From: Sphingopyxis solisilvae
GTDB lineage: Bacteria > Pseudomonadota > Alphaproteobacteria > Sphingomonadales > Sphingomonadaceae
Direction: 5' to 3'
DNA: 64,000 bases
Assembly: GCF_015475875.1 (NCBI RefSeq)
Contig: NZ_JADKYM010000005.1
Coordinates: 62,001 to 126,000, forward strand
Shown: positions 45,741-52,076 of the stretch, piece by piece
Layout of the letters: each line of letters starts with the position of its first letter
How positions within the stretch are numbered: position 1 is the first letter of the stretch
Made by a program: the position numbers and the translations under genes
Notes under the pieces: generated by a model
What the model saw: the letters and a program-made list of their open reading frames with translations, nothing else
Database searches by the model: none
Told to the model about the DNA's origin: nothing

Positions 45741-46016
45741 GCGGCGCGCGGAAGTTGTCGAAGTTGTCACTCTATCGACCCCGGAAACACGGGGGTGGCG
45801 GCGGAGGCTGGCGGTGCGCGAGCGGCCCAAGGTCGCCAAGGTCAGCCACGCGGCGCGGGCGCCAAACATCGCAAAGGTCGCGCGCGGACGCGATGTTCGG
45901 CGCGCGCGGAAAAGGCTGCGGATCGGACGAGTCAAAGAGCCGGAAAAGGAGGCTGGCACAGGAAAAATGGGTAGGAAAGCGGTTTTTCACGCGGAGCCGC
46001 GGAGGGCGCGGAGGGG
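45741..46016 (+). repeat. Long dispersed repeat, copy 2
   Basis: Plus-strand copy of the repeat whose inverse is at 33421-33772 (shared blocks listed there). It fills the lepA - Type ISP gap 45683-46087, which holds no gene. It ends in a cgcggag-type segment followed by ggcgcgg. Confidence 0.75.
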
Positions 46017-46087
46017 ACTTGCCCCGCCCGCCGATGATCGCCACTGTGCCGCCGGTTCACGCGGGGCGAGTGAGGGCGAAAAGACCA

Positions 46088-48591
46088 ATGGATATTGCAG
46101 CTTATCTGGACGAGGTGCGGACGCAGTTCGAAAGCGGGCACGCGACCGAGCATAGCTATCGCCCCGCACTGTACCGGCTGTTCCAGAGCATCGACCCGGC
46201 GATCCGGGTGGTCAATGAGCCGAAGCGCGGCGACGCGGGCATGGTCGATTTCCTGTTCGAGCGCGACGGGGTTCCGTTCGGCTGGGCCGAGGCGAAGGAC
46301 ATCGACAAGGACGTCATCAAGCTGAAAGGCTATTCGGTCGAGCAGCGCAAACGCTATGAGGCGGCCTATCCCAATCTGATCTATACCAACGGCGTCGATT
46401 TCGAGTTTATCCGCGACGGCGCGCAGGTGCATTTCGTGTCGATCGCCGATTTCCTGATGGGATTGCAGGCGGTCCCCGACCGGTTCGAAGAACTGGAACG
46501 CCAGTTGCGGCTGTTCGCCGAGCAAAAGCCGATCAGCATAAGGTCGGCGGCGAAGCTGGCCGAAATGATGGCGGCGAAGGCGGCGATCATCAAGGACGAG
46601 ATCGGCATCGCGCTGGCCGATGACCCCGACTATCGCACCGGATTGGGCGGCCAGTATCAAAGTTTCAAGGCCAATCTGCTGCCCGCGCTGGAACCCGGCG
46701 AATTTGCCGACATTTATGCCGAGACGATCACATACGGCATGTTCGCCGCGCGCTTTCACGACGATACGCCCGACACCTTCAGCCGCGCCGAGGCGCTGGA
46801 AAAACTGCCCGCGTCGAACCCGTTCCTGAAAGGATTGTTCGATTATATCGCCGGCCCGGCACTGCCCAATCGCCTGCGCTATATCGTCGACGATCTGGCG
46901 CAGGTGCTGCGCGCGAGCGACCCGCATTCGCTGTTCAAGGATTTCGGCAAGTTCACTGCGCGCAACGACCCCTTCATCCATTTCTATGAAGACTTTCTGG
47001 CTGCCTATAACCCCAAGAAGCGCAAGAGCCGCGGGGTGTGGTACACGCCCGAGCCGGTGGTCGATTTCATCGTGCGCGCGGTCGACGATGTTCTGAAGAC
47101 CGAGTTCGGGCTGCCCCACGGGTTGGCCGATACGAGCAAAGTCCCCGTCGAATGGGACACCGGGTTGAATAATCCCAAAACCGGGAAACCGCTGACCGAA
47201 AAGCGCGAGGTCCATAAGGTCCAGATTTTGGACCCGGCGACGGGTACGGGCACCTTTCTGGCCAAGGCCGTGCAATTGATTTCGGACCGGGTGAAGGCGC
47301 GCGCGCCGGGCAAATGGTCATCCTATGTCGAACAGGATTTGTTGCCGCGCCTGCACGGTTTCGAACTGCTGATGGCGAGTTACGCCATGTGCCATATGAA
47401 GCTGGACATGCAGCTGACCGAAAGCGGGTACACGCCAAGCGCGAAGCCGCCGCGCCTGTCGGTGTGGCTGACCAATGCGCTGGAACCCGCCGAGCGCGAC
47501 GTGAAGGATTTGTTCTTCCAGCCGCTCGTCGACGAAGCGCGCGGCGCGAGCGAGGTGAAGCGGCAGACGCCGATCATGTGCGTGATCGGGAATCCGCCCT
47601 ATTCGGGCGAGAGCGCCAATAAGGGCGATCACATTATGGCGCTGATGGAGGCTTACAAAAAAGAGCCGGGTGGCAAGGAGCGATTGAACGAGCGCAATCC
47701 CAAGTGGATCAACGACGATTACGTTAAGTTCATCCGCATGGCCGAGGATTTGATCGCCAAGAATCCGTCAGGCGGTGTGCTCGGGTTCATCACTAATCAC
47801 GGTTATCTCGACAACCCGACTTTTCGCGGCATGCGCTGGCACCTGCTCCGGACGTTTGACAAGATATGGGTGATCGACCTTCACGGAAACGCGAAGAAGA
47901 AGGAAGTCAGCCCAGACGGGTCCACCCCGCCGACCAAGCCGGACCCGACGATGATTTCCGCTCCGCCACCGGCGACGCTCGGCCGAGCGAGGTCAAGGTT
48001 TTCGACTATATTTATGGCGTGCTGCATTCGCCCGCCTATCGCGAAACCTTTGCCGAGTTTCTGAAGATCGATTTTCCGCGCATTCCCTATCCCAAATCGC
48101 CGGAGGTGTTTCGCCATGTCAGCGAAAAGGGTGAAGCGCTGCGGCGGTTGCACCTGATGGAAGCCGCGGCGATCGGCGCGACGCCCTATCGTTATGACGG
48201 TGCGGGCGATGATGTGGTGGCGAGCGGGTTTCCGAAGTTTGAAAAATCCTCCCCGTCGCGCAGCGATGGGGAGGGGGACCATGCGGAGCATGGTGGAGGG
48301 GCCAGCGGCGGAAAGGCCCCTCCACCGCCTTCGGCGGTCCCCCTCCCCACGGCTTCGCCGCAGGGAGGATCAACCGGCCGCGTGTTCATCAACAAGGATC
48401 AGTATTTCGACGACGTGCCCGAGATCGCGTGGAACTTCCACATCGGTGGTTATCAGCCCGCGCAGAAATGGCTGAAGGACCGGCGCGGGCGGGCGCTGTC
48501 GTGGGACGACATCGGCCATTATCAGAAGATCGTCAAAATCCTGATCGAGACCGACCGGATCATGAAAGAGATTGATCTGCCGCTGGAGTGA
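46088..48591 (+). pseudogene. Type ISP restriction/modification enzyme, internally deleted
   Basis: N-terminal part (46088-47930, ~615 codons): a PD-(D/E)XK-like region with MVDFLFERDG and GWAEAKDIDK, then an N6-adenine methyltransferase with ILDPATGTGTFLAKAV and CVIGNPPYSGE (NPPY). The product of this frame ends at 48064. The C-terminal specificity region reads in a second frame from ~47935: KVFDYIYGVLHSPAYRETFA, FLKIDFPRIPYP, GGYQPAQKWLKDRRGRALSW, to a TGA at 48589. Full-length relatives have several hundred residues between DLHGNAKKKEVSPDGS and the KVFDYIYG block; here the two are ~20 codons apart and out of frame, so a deletion has removed the middle. A palindromic element also sits in frame in the second part. 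Confidence 0.85.
48245..48371. repeat. Palindromic element family B, copy 1, in frame in the Type ISP remnant
   Basis: 127 bp bounded by aatcctcc and gggaggatc, with inner inverted repeats including accatgcggagcatggt. Translated in frame as a Ser/Gly/Pro-rich stretch of ~42 residues inside the C-terminal remnant. Confidence 0.88.
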
Positions 48592-48602: not shown

Positions 48603-48766
48603 AATCCTCCCTGTGGCGCAGCCATGGGGAGGTGGCAGTGCGAAGCACTGACGGAGGGGCGATTTGCGCTACCATCGTAGCCCCTCCACCATCGCCTACG
48701 GCGACGGTCCCGCTGGCGCTACGCGCCGTCTGCGACTCCCCCATGGCTTCGCCACAGGGAGGATTA
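48603..48766. repeat. Palindromic element family B, copy 2
   Basis: About 164 bp with edges aatcctcc and ggaggatta, several stacked inverted repeats. It ends on the stop codon (tta at 48764-48766) of the HEAT/cupin-like gene on the minus strand. Confidence 0.85.
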
Positions 48767-49648
48767 GCGGGCCAGCCACCGCCTGCAATCGTCCCTGACC
48801 CGCGCATCGCTATCCCGCATTCCCTTCTCCAGCACCGCCGCCCTGCCCTCGCCCTCCGCCACCGCGGCCAGCGCGGCGATGGCGCTCGCGCGGACGCGGG
48901 CGACGGGGTGGGTGGTGGCGAAATGGGCGGCGAGGTCGCGGGCTTCGTCGCTGAGGTGGACGGCAACGCGGAGGAGGATTTCGGTGCTGGTCGTCGTCGG
49001 GCGGCGCGCGATCGTGCGCGTTTCCAGGTCGACGATATATTGGTCGCGCCAGGGGATGTGATCGCCCTCGTCCATGATGTTCAGGCTGACCGAGAGGCCG
49101 GGCGGCGGGTGCTGGCAGTGGAGGTCGCGGTGGGCGCGATAGAGGCGGAGCTGGCCCTCACCCAGCTGGCTGCGCCCGGTGAAGGTCAGGGTCAGCGGTT
49201 CGTTGTGGCGGCCCTCGACGGCCTCCGGGTCGAGCTCATAATCGTCGCTGAGATAGCCGGGGCCGAAATAGCCGATGGTGAGGAAGTTGAAATTATGGTC
49301 GTGCGCGACGCCGTAGGAGAAGGCCGCGGCGCCGCTGGCCCGATAGGCGGCGTCGGTCGCGGCGGGCCAGATATTGGCGCGCAGGTACCAGCCTCGCGGG
49401 CTGCGGTGGAGGAGGATGACCTGCGCCGAATAGCGATTGTCGGGCCGTGGGTCGGCGGTGGTGGATCGGAGCGCGGCGAGGAGGTGGTCGGCGAGGAAGC
49501 TGCGGTTGCGCTGGAGGCCGGCGAGGAGGGTGGCGCAGCGGTGGATGCTGGCTTCGTCGGTGAGGTCGACGCCGTGGTGGTCGAGCCGGGCGGTGACGTC
49601 GGTCAGGGTGAGCGGCGGGCCGGGGGGCGGGGTTATGGCGCGGGGCAT
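48764..49648 (-). CDS. Unknown protein: cupin-like His motifs plus C-terminal HEAT-like helices
   Basis: 294 residues, soluble. The middle has YGVAHDHNFNFLTIGYFGPG and further on RLYRAHRDLHCQHPPP then GLSVSLNIMD; the H-x-H and downstream H spacing is like a cupin or non-haem iron barrel. The last ~70 residues (AVHLSDEARDLAAHFATTHP, VRASAIAALAAVAEGEGRAA) look like HEAT-type helix pairs. I do not recognise the family. It is the third gene of an operon with a 340-residue HEAT-like protein and a 48-residue peptide. Its stop is in the edge of a family B element. Confidence 0.6.
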   Translation of the reverse strand: MPRAITPPPGPPLTLTDVTARLDHHGVDLTDEASIHRCATLLAGLQRNRSFLADHLLAALRSTTADPRPDNRYSAQVILLHRSPRGWYLRANIWPAATDAAYRASGAAAFSYGVAHDHNFNFLTIGYFGPGYLSDDYELDPEAVEGRHNEPLTLTFTGRSQLGEGQLRLYRAHRDLHCQHPPPGLSVSLNIMDEGDHIPWRDQYIVDLETRTIARRPTTTSTEILLRVAVHLSDEARDLAAHFATTHPVARVRASAIAALAAVAEGEGRAAVLEKGMRDSDARVRDDCRRWLAR

Positions 49649-49660
49649 GGGGGGCTTTCC

Positions 49661-49797
49661 TAAAGCCCCTCCCCTTTAGGGGAGGGGTTGGGGTGGGGTC
49701 CATCGGCCTTGCGCAAGGCCGATAGACCCCACCCGCTGCGACTAACCAGCAAGCTGGTAAGTCTCGCTGCCCTCCCCTGAAGGGGAGGGCTTGTTAA
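49661..49797. repeat. Palindromic element family A, copy 2
   Basis: About 137 bp, nearly identical to the truB copy read on the opposite strand; includes cccctcccctttaggggagggg (49666-49687) and the central catcggccttgcgcaaggccgat palindrome. It spans the gap between two minus-strand genes and encodes the last residues of the upstream one. Confidence 0.9.
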
Positions 49798-50764
49798 AAA
49801 GCGCGAGCGTGGCTTTTGCCGCGGCGCGGACTTCGGGGTGCGGGTCATCCGCCGCCATCGCAGCGAGCGGGGCGTGGGCGGCGGTGGGGCTTAGCGCGAT
49901 GAGCTCGCGCATCGCGTGCCAGCGGGCGGCGAAGTCGGGGCTGCGGGTCTCGGCAACGAACAGGGGCGCGGCGTCGCGGTGCTGCATATGGCGGAGCAAG
50001 GTCAATGCCATCGTACGAAAGCTGCTGTCGCGGCTGGACGCGCTGATGTGGAGAAGGCGGCCGGTGACGGGGTCGTAGCTGCGGATCGGGAGCGGCGACG
50101 GCGGCTGGACGGTGAGTTCGAGGAGCAGCGCGTCATGCGCGCCGGGAACGAGGGTGAAGCTTTCGCGCGCGGTGTCGAGGTCGAGCGTCTCGCCGGTTTG
50201 GAGCGGGCGCGGGGGATCGCTGTGGCAGCGCGCGGCGGCGCGGGCGGTGAAGGCGCCGGCCTCCTCGGCGGGGGTGAGCGCGACATGATGTCGGCAGAGC
50301 TGCGCGCCGCCGCTGGCGAGGACATGGATCGCAGCGCGTCCGGGGACGAAGATGGCGGGCGATTCGGGCGGTGCGGCGGAGGCGAAGGGCCAGACGCGCA
50401 AGGTCAGACGGACGTGGCCGCGTTCGGCGAGCACGAGCCCGCCCGGTGCCTGTTCGCCGCCGCCCTCCCCGCCACCAAAGGCGCGCAGCGGCGGGCGCGC
50501 GAAGGGGTCGGTGCGGAGGAGCGCGAGCGCGCTTTCGATCCGCGTTGCGAGCCAGCGCCGGTCGCTGAGCCAGGGGCGCAGCGCGGCGATCACGGCATCG
50601 GGGGCGGCGTTCGCCTGCGCAGTGATCGCGGTCAGCAGGCCGTCGGGTACGGTATCGGCGATCGCCCATGCGGCGGCGACCTCACCCACCGCGGTGCGGA
50701 TCGCGGCGCGGCGGGCGGCGTCGTGGCGCGGGAAATGATCGTGGCGGGAGGCGCTGGCAAGCAT
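49742..50764 (-). CDS. Unknown HEAT-like protein with repeat-derived C-terminus
   Basis: 340 residues, soluble, Ala-rich. The first part (AAIRTAVGEVAAAWAIADTV) is helical; a central beta-rich part has RLLHISASSRDSSFRTMALT; then RHMQHRDAAPLFVAETRSPD and MAADDPHPEVRAAAKATLAL form HEAT-like helices. The last ~17 residues ([17 protein letters not shown]) are translation of element family A copy 2, so the original C-terminus has been replaced. Sits between the 48-residue peptide (54 bp upstream) and the 294-residue protein. Function unknown. Confidence 0.6.
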   Translation of the reverse strand: MLASASRHDHFPRHDAARRAAIRTAVGEVAAAWAIADTVPDGLLTAITAQANAAPDAVIAALRPWLSDRRWLATRIESALALLRTDPFARPPLRAFGGGEGGGEQAPGGLVLAERGHVRLTLRVWPFASAAPPESPAIFVPGRAAIHVLASGGAQLCRHHVALTPAEEAGAFTARAAARCHSDPPRPLQTGETLDLDTARESFTLVPGAHDALLLELTVQPPSPLPIRSYDPVTGRLLHISASSRDSSFRTMALTLLRHMQHRDAAPLFVAETRSPDFAARWHAMRELIALSPTAAHAPLAAMAADDPHPEVRAAAKATLALFNKPSPSGEGSETYQLAG

Positions 50765-50818
50765 CGCGGTGGGGCGGGAAAGCCGGGGCGCGATGCCCCG
50801 CCCCTTCCCGCCGCTCTG

Positions 50819-50965
50819 TCAGTCGTACACGATCAGCGCGATGGTGACCGCAATCTCGAACACCGACGGCCCCGACGACGCGCTCTCCCCGACGAGCGCG
50901 CCGAACAGCCCGACCGCGGTGTCGAGCGCGGGCAGCGCGTCGATGTCGATGGCTGGCAAATCCAT
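50819..50965 (-). CDS. 48-residue peptide, candidate precursor or small regulator
   Basis: Not found by normal length limits. ATG 50965-50963 with a strong ribosome site (aggag, 6-bp spacing). Begins MDLPAIDIDALPALDTAV with a regular L-P/I-D rhythm, followed by GLFGALVGESASSGPS and a hydrophobic end EIAVTIALIVYD. The first ~18 residues look like a leader and the Gly/Ser-rich plus hydrophobic end like a core or membrane part. It heads an operon with two proteins of no known family, the layout of a ribosomally made, modified peptide, but no recognised RiPP enzyme is present. Confidence 0.6.
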   Translation of the reverse strand: MDLPAIDIDALPALDTAVGLFGALVGESASSGPSVFEIAVTIALIVYD

Positions 50966-51128
50966 ATGTTTCTCCTGATGCGACCGGCGGCGCGACCTGC
51001 CGCCGCGGCGCAGGGTTAGGAAGCGGCGCGCCGGGGGCCAGTTAACTTACCGTAATGTCGCTGGTCGAAGGCGGCTTGCCCGCGCGGCGGCGCGGCATAG
51101 GGTGGCGGGAACAAACGGGAGATTTTTC

Positions 51129-52076
51129 ATGCGCCGCACGATTGCCACCGCCCTAGCCCTGCTGCTGGCTACGCCTGCCGCCGCCGAAACGCTGCTGATC
51201 GGCAACAAGGGCGAGGATACGCTGAGCCTGGTCGCGTTGGCGTCGGGCGAAGAGCTGGCGCGGCTGCCGACGGGCCGGATGCCGCACGAGATTGCGGTGT
51301 CGCCCGACGGCAGGCAGGCGGCGGTGGTCGCCTATGGCGGGACGACGATCGACGTGTTCGACGTCGCGGCGCGGCGGAAGGTGAAGACGATCGACCTCAG
51401 CCCGAACCAGCGGCCGCACGGGCTGGTCTGGCTGAGCGACGGGCGGCTGGTCGCGACGGCGGAGGGCAGCGAGTCGGTCGCGGTGGTGGCGGCGGACGGC
51501 GCCGTCACCTCGATTGCGACGGGGCAAAAGGGGACGCATATGGTCGTCGTCGCCCCCGACAACCGCACCGCCTATACCGCCAATATCGGGTCGGGGACGG
51601 TGAGCGTGCTCGACCTGAATGCGGGGACGAAATTGCACGACCTGACCATCGGCGGCAAGCCCGAGGGGCTGGCGCTGGCGAAGGGCGGGCGCGAACTGTG
51701 GGTCGGCGACCTTGACGCGCCGCGGGTGACGGTGTGGGACACCGCGAGCGGTGCGAAGGTCGATGAGCTGCCGGTCGATCCGGTGGCGATCCGGGTGCTG
51801 GCGAGCCCCGACGGCAGACTGATCGCGACGAGCAATATCGGCAAGGGCACGATCAGCCTGTTCGATGCGGAGACACGCGCGCCGGTGCGGACGATCGCGG
51901 TGTCGGAGGGCGACGCGGCGCGGCAGGTGACCTTGCTGTTCAGCGCCGATTCGGCGCGGCTCTATGCGGCCGAGACGGGGGTGGACAAGGTCGCCGAGAT
52001 CGACGTGGCGAGCGGCAAGGTACTGCGCCGGATCGCGGCGGGGAAGCAGGGCGACGGGCTGGCGATTGCGCCCTGA
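51129..52076 (+). CDS. YncE-like periplasmic beta-propeller protein
   Basis: 315 residues with a signal peptide (MRRTIATALALLLATPAAAE). The mature chain is built of ~42-residue repeats: LLIGNKGEDTLSLVALASGE, LPTGRMPHEIAVSPDGRQAA, TIATGQKGTHMVVVAPDNRT..., the seven-bladed YVTN/YncE propeller pattern. Such proteins bind ligands or partners in the periplasm; role unknown. ATG 51129 chosen over 51102 for the signal peptide. Converges with the SnoaL-like gene (6-bp gap). Confidence 0.83.
   Translation: MRRTIATALALLLATPAAAETLLIGNKGEDTLSLVALASGEELARLPTGRMPHEIAVSPDGRQAAVVAYGGTTIDVFDVAARRKVKTIDLSPNQRPHGLVWLSDGRLVATAEGSESVAVVAADGAVTSIATGQKGTHMVVVAPDNRTAYTANIGSGTVSVLDLNAGTKLHDLTIGGKPEGLALAKGGRELWVGDLDAPRVTVWDTASGAKVDELPVDPVAIRVLASPDGRLIATSNIGKGTISLFDAETRAPVRTIAVSEGDAARQVTLLFSADSARLYAAETGVDKVAEIDVASGKVLRRIAAGKQGDGLAIAP

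Follow-up and report, generated by a model that had tools for sequence, protein, structure and literature searches.

A conserved peptide gene coupled to two cupin-HEAT protein genes in Sphingopyxis solisilvae and its relatives: a candidate peptide-maturation unit

A 64,000-nucleotide stretch of the Sphingopyxis solisilvae genome (contig NZ_JADKYM010000005.1, positions 62,001 to 126,000; hereafter, the window) carries on its minus strand a gene for a 48-residue peptide, followed by genes for a 340-residue protein (A) and a 294-residue protein (B). A first-pass annotation made from the letters of the window had placed these three open reading frames (ORFs) where we find them, and the strong ribosome binding site that it ascribed to the peptide is present as an AGGAG motif (Table 1). 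The peptide is a real, conserved gene, which co-occurs with B and is closely coupled to A. We read the three genes as one functional unit, a module akin to those of ribosomally synthesized and post-translationally modified peptides (RiPPs), in which A and B would mature the peptide by oxidizing its core, and we give this reading a probability of roughly 0.55. The unit looks like a seemingly undescribed route to a modified, probably exported, small peptide.

The peptide gene and its coupling to A and B

The N-terminal half of the window peptide is of the type LPxIDIxxLPxLDTxVGLFG, and its C-terminus is SVFEIAVTIALIVYD. Across 81 aligned peptides, five of which were placed by position, the N-terminal consensus approximates (I/L)D(I/L)xx(L/I)P(D/E)L(D/E)TxVGxxGS; it is followed by a linker of varying length and by a C-terminal half in which V, I and L abound. 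DDRxVIxMVYxYE is a common C-terminus elsewhere in the Sphingomonadaceae. Cysteine occurs in 19 of the 81 and is missing from the other 62, the window peptide among them, and a GGxxC motif stands ahead of a short, mostly hydrophobic C-terminus in 12 (counts made with the start of the peptide at locus L054 corrected). Judged by sequence, this is the make-up of a short ribosomal precursor with a conserved leader and a variable core. The peptide has no match in Pfam or NCBIfam, and no bacteriocin model from either collection matched the peptides tested. The gene is under purifying selection: over 11 Sphingopyxis-type copies, the ratio of nonsynonymous to synonymous polymorphism (pN/pS) is 0.40 overall, 0.30 for residues 2-24, 0.50 for residues 25-34 and 0.51 for residues 35-48.

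A profile built from 15 seed peptides gave 78 matches at E<=10 when searched against 22,221 six-frame segments of 90 loci bearing B. The peptide was matched at E<=0.05 in 72 of these loci (57 non-seeds and 15 that had supplied seeds, which makes the count partly circular), every time on the strand of B and ending 851-1199 nt upstream of it, and the only two off-position matches had E-values of 4.6 and 4.9. The remaining 18 loci comprise five that are broken off at a contig end (L031, L032, L035, L040, L042), four with a weak match at the correct position (L048, L085, L091, L131; E 0.78-6.3), five in which a small ORF was assigned by position alone and the peptide is less certain (L089, L090, L113, L114, L115), one that is split (L056) and three in which the search upstream of B gave no peptide (L050, L051, L053).

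Co-occurrence was assessed with a second peptide profile (A3, 40 peptides) in the same 298 Sphingomonadaceae genomes as B. B was found in 106 genomes and the peptide in 103; both were present in 101, B alone in five (G076, G155, G199, G258, G288), the peptide alone in two (G018, G232) and neither in 190. Weak matches are involved in two of these calls (G258, E 3.7e-4; G018, E 3.4e-4), and small ORFs lie at the correct position in G076, G155, G199 and G288 despite the B-only call. Within the genus, 56 of 80 genomes carry the peptide. The first-pass annotation had named as a fatal outcome that the peptide should lack conservation beside homologues of the two larger proteins; it is conserved there, and directly precedes A in the loci inspected. 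A chance ORF is ruled out by the selection on the peptide and by its co-occurrence with B. Some loci are disrupted: in G232 (L132) the peptide is kept beside an apparent broken start of A, and BLAST found neither A nor B there; in G191 (L134) and G293 (L133) the locus is decayed, with the peptide kept and fragments of B remaining; and in G162 (L056, L135) the peptide and most of A are in one place and B is about 40 kb off, the operon apparently having been split by an insertion in A.

The gene order is peptide-A-B. Of the 90 systems, 86 have A upstream of B, three of the exceptions end at a contig edge and one, L114, gave no BLAST match. A and B overlap in 64 of the 86 and are separated by 0-20 nt in 13 more; in the window a gap of 93 nt separates them, and a repeat element lies there. 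The gap between peptide and A, measured in 76 loci (median 13.5 nt), is 0-30 nt in 48 and 31-120 nt in 21, and the genes overlap in six, at least one of these overlaps (L046) stemming from a misplaced start of A.

The unit is widespread in the Sphingomonadaceae and scattered in the Gammaproteobacteria. Outside searches for B gave matches in 6 of 385 genomes of the class and 16 of 398 genomes of the phylum; four and 13 of these, respectively, proved to be Sphingomonadaceae and one in each set was a weak HEAT-only match, leaving one match from outside the family in the class set and two in the phylum set. A match to B is present in 10 of 198 genomes of the family of G941; that family is probably Lysobacter-like, since L157 B shares 81% identity with the B of the Lysobacter locus L053. 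That the unit is plasmid-borne in general is ruled out: among 72,556 plasmid records, one has B, and a search of plasmid records with A gave no match at E<=0.01. A phage or prophage origin was likewise rejected: a pattern-based scan of viral contigs returned 16 stretches with no relative among them, and the B of an Alteromonas plasmid had no match among phage records.

Two cupin-HEAT proteins

In the AlphaFold prediction for B, a central beta domain lies between helices at the N-terminus and HEAT helices at the C-terminus (mean predicted local distance difference test score, pLDDT, 89.5, from 18 sequences). Thiol dioxygenases rank first in a Foldseek comparison with the PDB (best 4tlf, 7.7e-8), the next matches being 3-mercaptopropionate, cysteine and cysteamine dioxygenases; the template modelling (TM) scores against thiol dioxygenases, about 0.4 when normalized to the query and mostly 0.5-0.6 when normalized to the target length, speak for a fold match and not for close homology. 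Over 90 sequences, the candidate metal ligands His116 and His118 are present in all and His177 in 89; of the other site residues, Asp175, Thr124 and Trp94 are present in all 90, and Arg90, which we take to resemble the substrate-binding Arg of cysteine dioxygenase (CDO), and Gln179 in 89. By predicted fold and conserved residues, B therefore has the cupin fold and the candidate three-His metal site of a thiol dioxygenase. The H-x-H...H cupin-like motifs and HEAT-like end noted in the first-pass annotation were correctly seen, and structure prediction, which it had proposed as a way to look for a metal site, gives a thiol-dioxygenase-like cupin with three candidate metal histidines. By sequence membership, B falls outside PF05995 (CDO_I) and related Pfam families: Pfam yields sub-threshold HEAT matches only and NCBIfam none, and PF05995 has no match in this genome or in 20 relatives. 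In a comparison of the B profile with two proteins found through PF05995, one of which scored below the family cut-off, HDH aligns with HDH, weakly (prob 14, E 0.002). The near-invariant site in an oxygenase-like predicted fold suggests to us that B behaves as an enzyme.

A was described in the first-pass annotation as HEAT-like. Its HEAT repeats are present (HEAT_2 in Pfam, 7.7e-8; best NCBIfam E-value 0.14), but the protein is more than that: its predicted structure (pLDDT 88.4) follows the same order as B, with helices, a cupin-like domain and HEAT repeats. The best PDB matches are auxin-binding protein (1.5e-5) and then thiol dioxygenases, and the profiles of A and B align across 254 columns (prob 78, E 1.8e-5). 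The cupin domain of A is without HxH; Sphingopyxis A does have an HDH in its N-terminus, where the prediction is of low confidence, and distant members lack it. A is likely a pseudoenzyme paralogue of B, that is, a dead partner.

Exporters, proposed mechanism and competing explanations

Relatives of the unit stand beside exporter genes and can have more than one precursor. On the Alteromonas plasmid pASTE61-200 (L142) the order is HlyD, a MacB-type ATPase and permease, two small ORFs, A, B, an ATP-binding cassette (ABC) ATPase and an ABC-2 permease. L156 has the same order through the ABC ATPase, likewise with two precursors, and a search of that locus with the ABC-2 permease found nothing; in both loci the two small peptides ahead of A are dissimilar. 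HlyD/MacA-like genes lie close to A-B in L158, L159, L160 and L161; three of these loci, L158, L159 and L161, also encode a MacB-type ATPase (E<1e-56) and, downstream of B, a VGGPxC-type peptide. In L163, three tandem precursors downstream of B have a common leader and a GGNVxG stretch. In the Sphingomonadaceae genome G286 (L083), peptide-A-B occurs twice, followed on one strand by HlyD, an ABC ATPase, two FtsX/MacB permeases and an ABC exporter, and at L090 a C39-peptidase ABC exporter (Peptidase_C39, E 2.6e-30) lies upstream and divergent.

Further small ORFs were seen in this set. One, at L162 10002-10190 (+), begins like the peptide and contains a pair of similar STxFIFAAxR segments, reminiscent of precursors with several cores. 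Near-identical 43-residue ORFs at L162 7710-7838 and L164 2601-2729 (+), from two genomes of one genus, precede shorter B-like proteins (open frame 251 residues).

The constrained leader, divergent core, gene multiplication and exporter links lead us to read the peptide as a precursor. The most economical mechanism, in our reading, is a complex of A and B that would bind the leader and oxidize the core. The conserved N-terminal half would dock on the HEAT or helical parts of an A-B heteromer, A sharing the fold and helping to bind or present the peptide as a pseudoenzyme, and B would coordinate a metal (probably Fe(II)) with His116, His118 and His177 and use O2 to oxidize a residue of the C-terminal half, which is variable and hydrophobic. 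Export of the product would follow, in some relatives through a MacAB-type or C39-peptidase ABC transporter encoded nearby and here through an unlinked one. The first-pass annotation had itself suggested a modified peptide or a peptide-maturation system; co-occurrence with B and the exporters and multiple precursors of relatives favor that suggestion, and the restriction of GGxxC to 12 of the 81 peptides and the 62 without cysteine do not.

The missing cysteines are the chief of several findings that weigh against maturation by A and B. Since 62 of the 81 peptides are Cys-free while the site of B is unchanged, the known thiol chemistry is unfit for most members, and a general sulfinylation of peptide Cys is ruled out; thiol dioxygenation, the known reaction of the fold relatives of B, would be compatible with the GGxxC subclass and incompatible with the Cys-free majority. 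Either the chemistry of B has changed, or its substrate, which may be a small-molecule thiol, differs and the role of the peptide is another, and this is the main uncertainty. Pfam cupin or CDO models matched none of the 18 aligned members of B, and the C-terminal half of the peptide is still constrained in Sphingopyxis (0.51, as given above), unlike a fast-diverging antimicrobial core. Exporter linkage, determined by searches with homologues of a few transporters rather than full annotation and without a matched control, is found in a minority: HlyD/MacA-like genes stand at 5 of the 10 loci of the G941 family, with no homologue in the stretch searched at L157, L162, L163, L164 and L165; among the 90 earlier systems, a close MacB-type ATPase is present at L083 alone (E 2e-49), L058, L078, L092, L048 and L090 show weaker ABC matches, and the C39 transporter occurs at L090 alone. 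Most Sphingomonadaceae loci, the window included, have no such exporter nearby, and this genome has no Peptidase_C39 match. In addition, no A was found at L164 and no peptide at L157, and the unit is sparse outside its family, with 1 of 398 phylum genomes carrying a full-length, high-scoring B besides a partial match in G785.

The peptide may, in an explanation that we regard as unlikely, be bound by A and B and left unchanged, the two serving as chaperones, escorts or immunity proteins for a peptide that is secreted or acts on membranes without modification, with the cupin site holding a ligand or a metal structurally. The hydrophobic, V/I-rich C-termini of the peptides, HEAT repeats as binding modules, the exporters and ABC-2-type pairs at some loci and the retention of A in 86 of the 90 systems, although its cupin lacks HxH, would all fit such a role; the near-invariant HDH...H, Arg, Asp and Gln of B over 90 loci are more typical of catalysis. 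An explanation of the operon as a leader or attenuator, in which the 48-codon ORF is translated to set the expression of A and B and has no product of its own, would account for a small ORF at the 5' end with a short gap to A. We consider it very improbable, since the peptide is constrained at the amino-acid level, precursors also occur in tandem and downstream, two different peptides stand ahead of A in some loci, and decayed loci keep the peptide without intact A or B.

A regulatory circuit, in which the peptide is a signal or a redox or oxygen sensor that B alters with O2 and whose state is read by a winged-helix regulator at an upstream element, is in our view quite unlikely, and its case rests on the surroundings of the operon. 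An AT-rich TTAC-N6-(T/G)TAA element recurs in many loci 70-100 nt ahead of the peptide start; scored against a consensus of 16 fixed positions, a partly circular measure because that consensus came from loci already seen, 26 of the 75 upstream regions reach >=12, versus about 1% of shuffled ones, and 29 score <=9. Sphingopyxis has a variant form, near ATTACGATAAGTTAACT in 12 Sphingopyxis-type loci. The single exact match in this genome is that of the operon, a two-mismatch copy lies within a neighbouring gene, and a control pattern also gave one match. Directly after B, 13 of 88 loci have a gene with an OmpR-type winged-helix motif (motif search; two confirmed by Pfam), the only cluster among the gene clusters compared to recur immediately 3' of B; that its product binds the element is a guess. 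A LytS/LytTR pair and a LuxR-type gene at L048 point the same way. The motif search found no winged-helix gene at the other 75 of 88 loci, and a biosynthetic operon would equally show co-regulation.

If A and B do mature the peptide, the closest points of comparison are the thiol dioxygenases and known RiPP systems. B has the cupin fold and HxH...H of the former and differs from them in its extra C-terminal HEAT repeats, its degenerate paralogue as partner and mostly Cys-free partner peptides. Like RiPP systems, the unit pairs a short precursor of conserved N-terminal and divergent C-terminal half with a dedicated putative tailoring enzyme, and has multiple precursors and exporters at some loci; unlike them, it contains no known RiPP enzyme, as the first-pass annotation had observed, matches no named precursor model, and its modification step is a proposal. 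PbsQ and BpmG are described as JmjC-related cupin hydroxylases of RiPP clusters that work beside a multinuclear non-heme iron-dependent oxidative enzyme (MNIO) and B12-radical S-adenosylmethionine enzymes (PMC12257519); B would resemble them as a cupin-fold enzyme acting on a ribosomal precursor, and differs in its three His, HEAT repeats and pseudoenzyme partner. A Nif11/cupin cluster (PMC10783134) and cupin-4 proteins with nitrile hydratase leader peptide (NHLP) precursors (PMC9426513) represent other types of cupin in RiPP clusters. With double-glycine bacteriocins of class II type, the unit shares GGxxC in 12 of the 81 peptides and a C39 ABC exporter at one locus; the window peptide has no GG site. 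A known anti-phage defence system was rejected, with no PADLOC family for the peptide, A or B. The peptide, the B cupin and the pair are all without a model in Pfam, NCBIfam or PADLOC (PHROGs was not searched), and the A-B pair is not described in the accessible parts of the open-access literature searched, so that a description elsewhere is possible.

In its widest form, which we hold only tentatively and at less than even odds, the proposal is a new ribosomal natural-product class of the Sphingomonadaceae and scattered Gammaproteobacteria, made through a heteromeric cupin-HEAT oxygenase with a pseudoenzyme paralogue, in which a thiol-dioxygenase fold has moved to mostly non-Cys residues of a leader-bound hydrophobic peptide. 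Were this true, a RiPP-like class would have been overlooked by miners that rely on known family models, the three-His thiol-dioxygenase fold would extend to peptide substrates without cysteine, and HEAT repeats might serve to recognize leaders. With only three genes in the set, reconstitution should be simple.

The unit in the window and its neighbours

Table 1. Features of the peptide-A-B unit in the window (window coordinates).
Feature	Position	Strand	Description
Peptide gene	50819-50965	-	48 residues, precursor-like; conserved N-terminal half, variable linker, V/I-rich C-terminus
Shine-Dalgarno AGGAG of peptide gene	50972-50976	-	6 nt upstream of peptide ATG
Conserved upstream element ATTACGGTAAGTTAACT	51040-51056	-	75-91 nt ahead of peptide start
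Protein A gene	49742-50764	-	340 residues; helical N-terminus, cupin-like domain without HxH, C-terminal HEAT repeats
A cupin-like domain (predicted)	50042-50485	-	about residues 94-241
A HEAT repeats	49796-50041	-	about residues 242-323; HEAT_2 E 7.7e-8
Protein B gene	48764-49648	-	294 residues; helical N-terminus, predicted three-His cupin, C-terminal HEAT repeats
B cupin domain (predicted)	49004-49426	-	about residues 75-215; conserved R90, W94, H116, H118, T124, D175, H177, Q179
B His116-Asp117-His118	49295-49303	-	candidate metal ligands His116 and His118
B His177	49118-49120	-	third candidate metal ligand
B HEAT repeats	48767-48994	-	about residues 219-294

Several Sphingomonadaceae neighbours recur, presumably thioesterase-like (clusters 2 and 3), RuvX-like (cluster 13) and LepA-like (cluster 8) genes. 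Clusters 2, 3 and 13 lie on the opposite strand and cluster 8 on the same strand about 4 kb downstream, and all were taken as genus synteny. At L048, whose contig is labelled Blastopirellula (a mislabel or a transfer is possible), the LytS/LytTR pair, a LuxR autoinducer-type regulator and an ABC ATPase are found next to A-B and an unassigned protein, and a ketosynthase-like gene was seen by eye downstream.

In the window, inverted repeats resembling repetitive extragenic palindromic (REP) elements lie at 48245-48370, 48603-48765 (after B) and 49654-49802 (between A and B), the last overlapping the codons for the final residues of A. B is adjoined by a type IIG restriction-methyltransferase-like gene, with PADLOC REase_MTase_IIG matches of 3.4e-167 and 4.4e-44 to its frames at 45755-48064 and 47866-48591 (+); it is split over these two overlapping frames and is therefore probably broken, and the first of the repeats sits within its second part. 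On the other side, a YncE-like beta-propeller gene at 51102-52076 (+) is divergent from the peptide gene, and probably corresponds to gene cluster 14, a minus-strand cluster found at a similar distance in nine Sphingopyxis-type loci.

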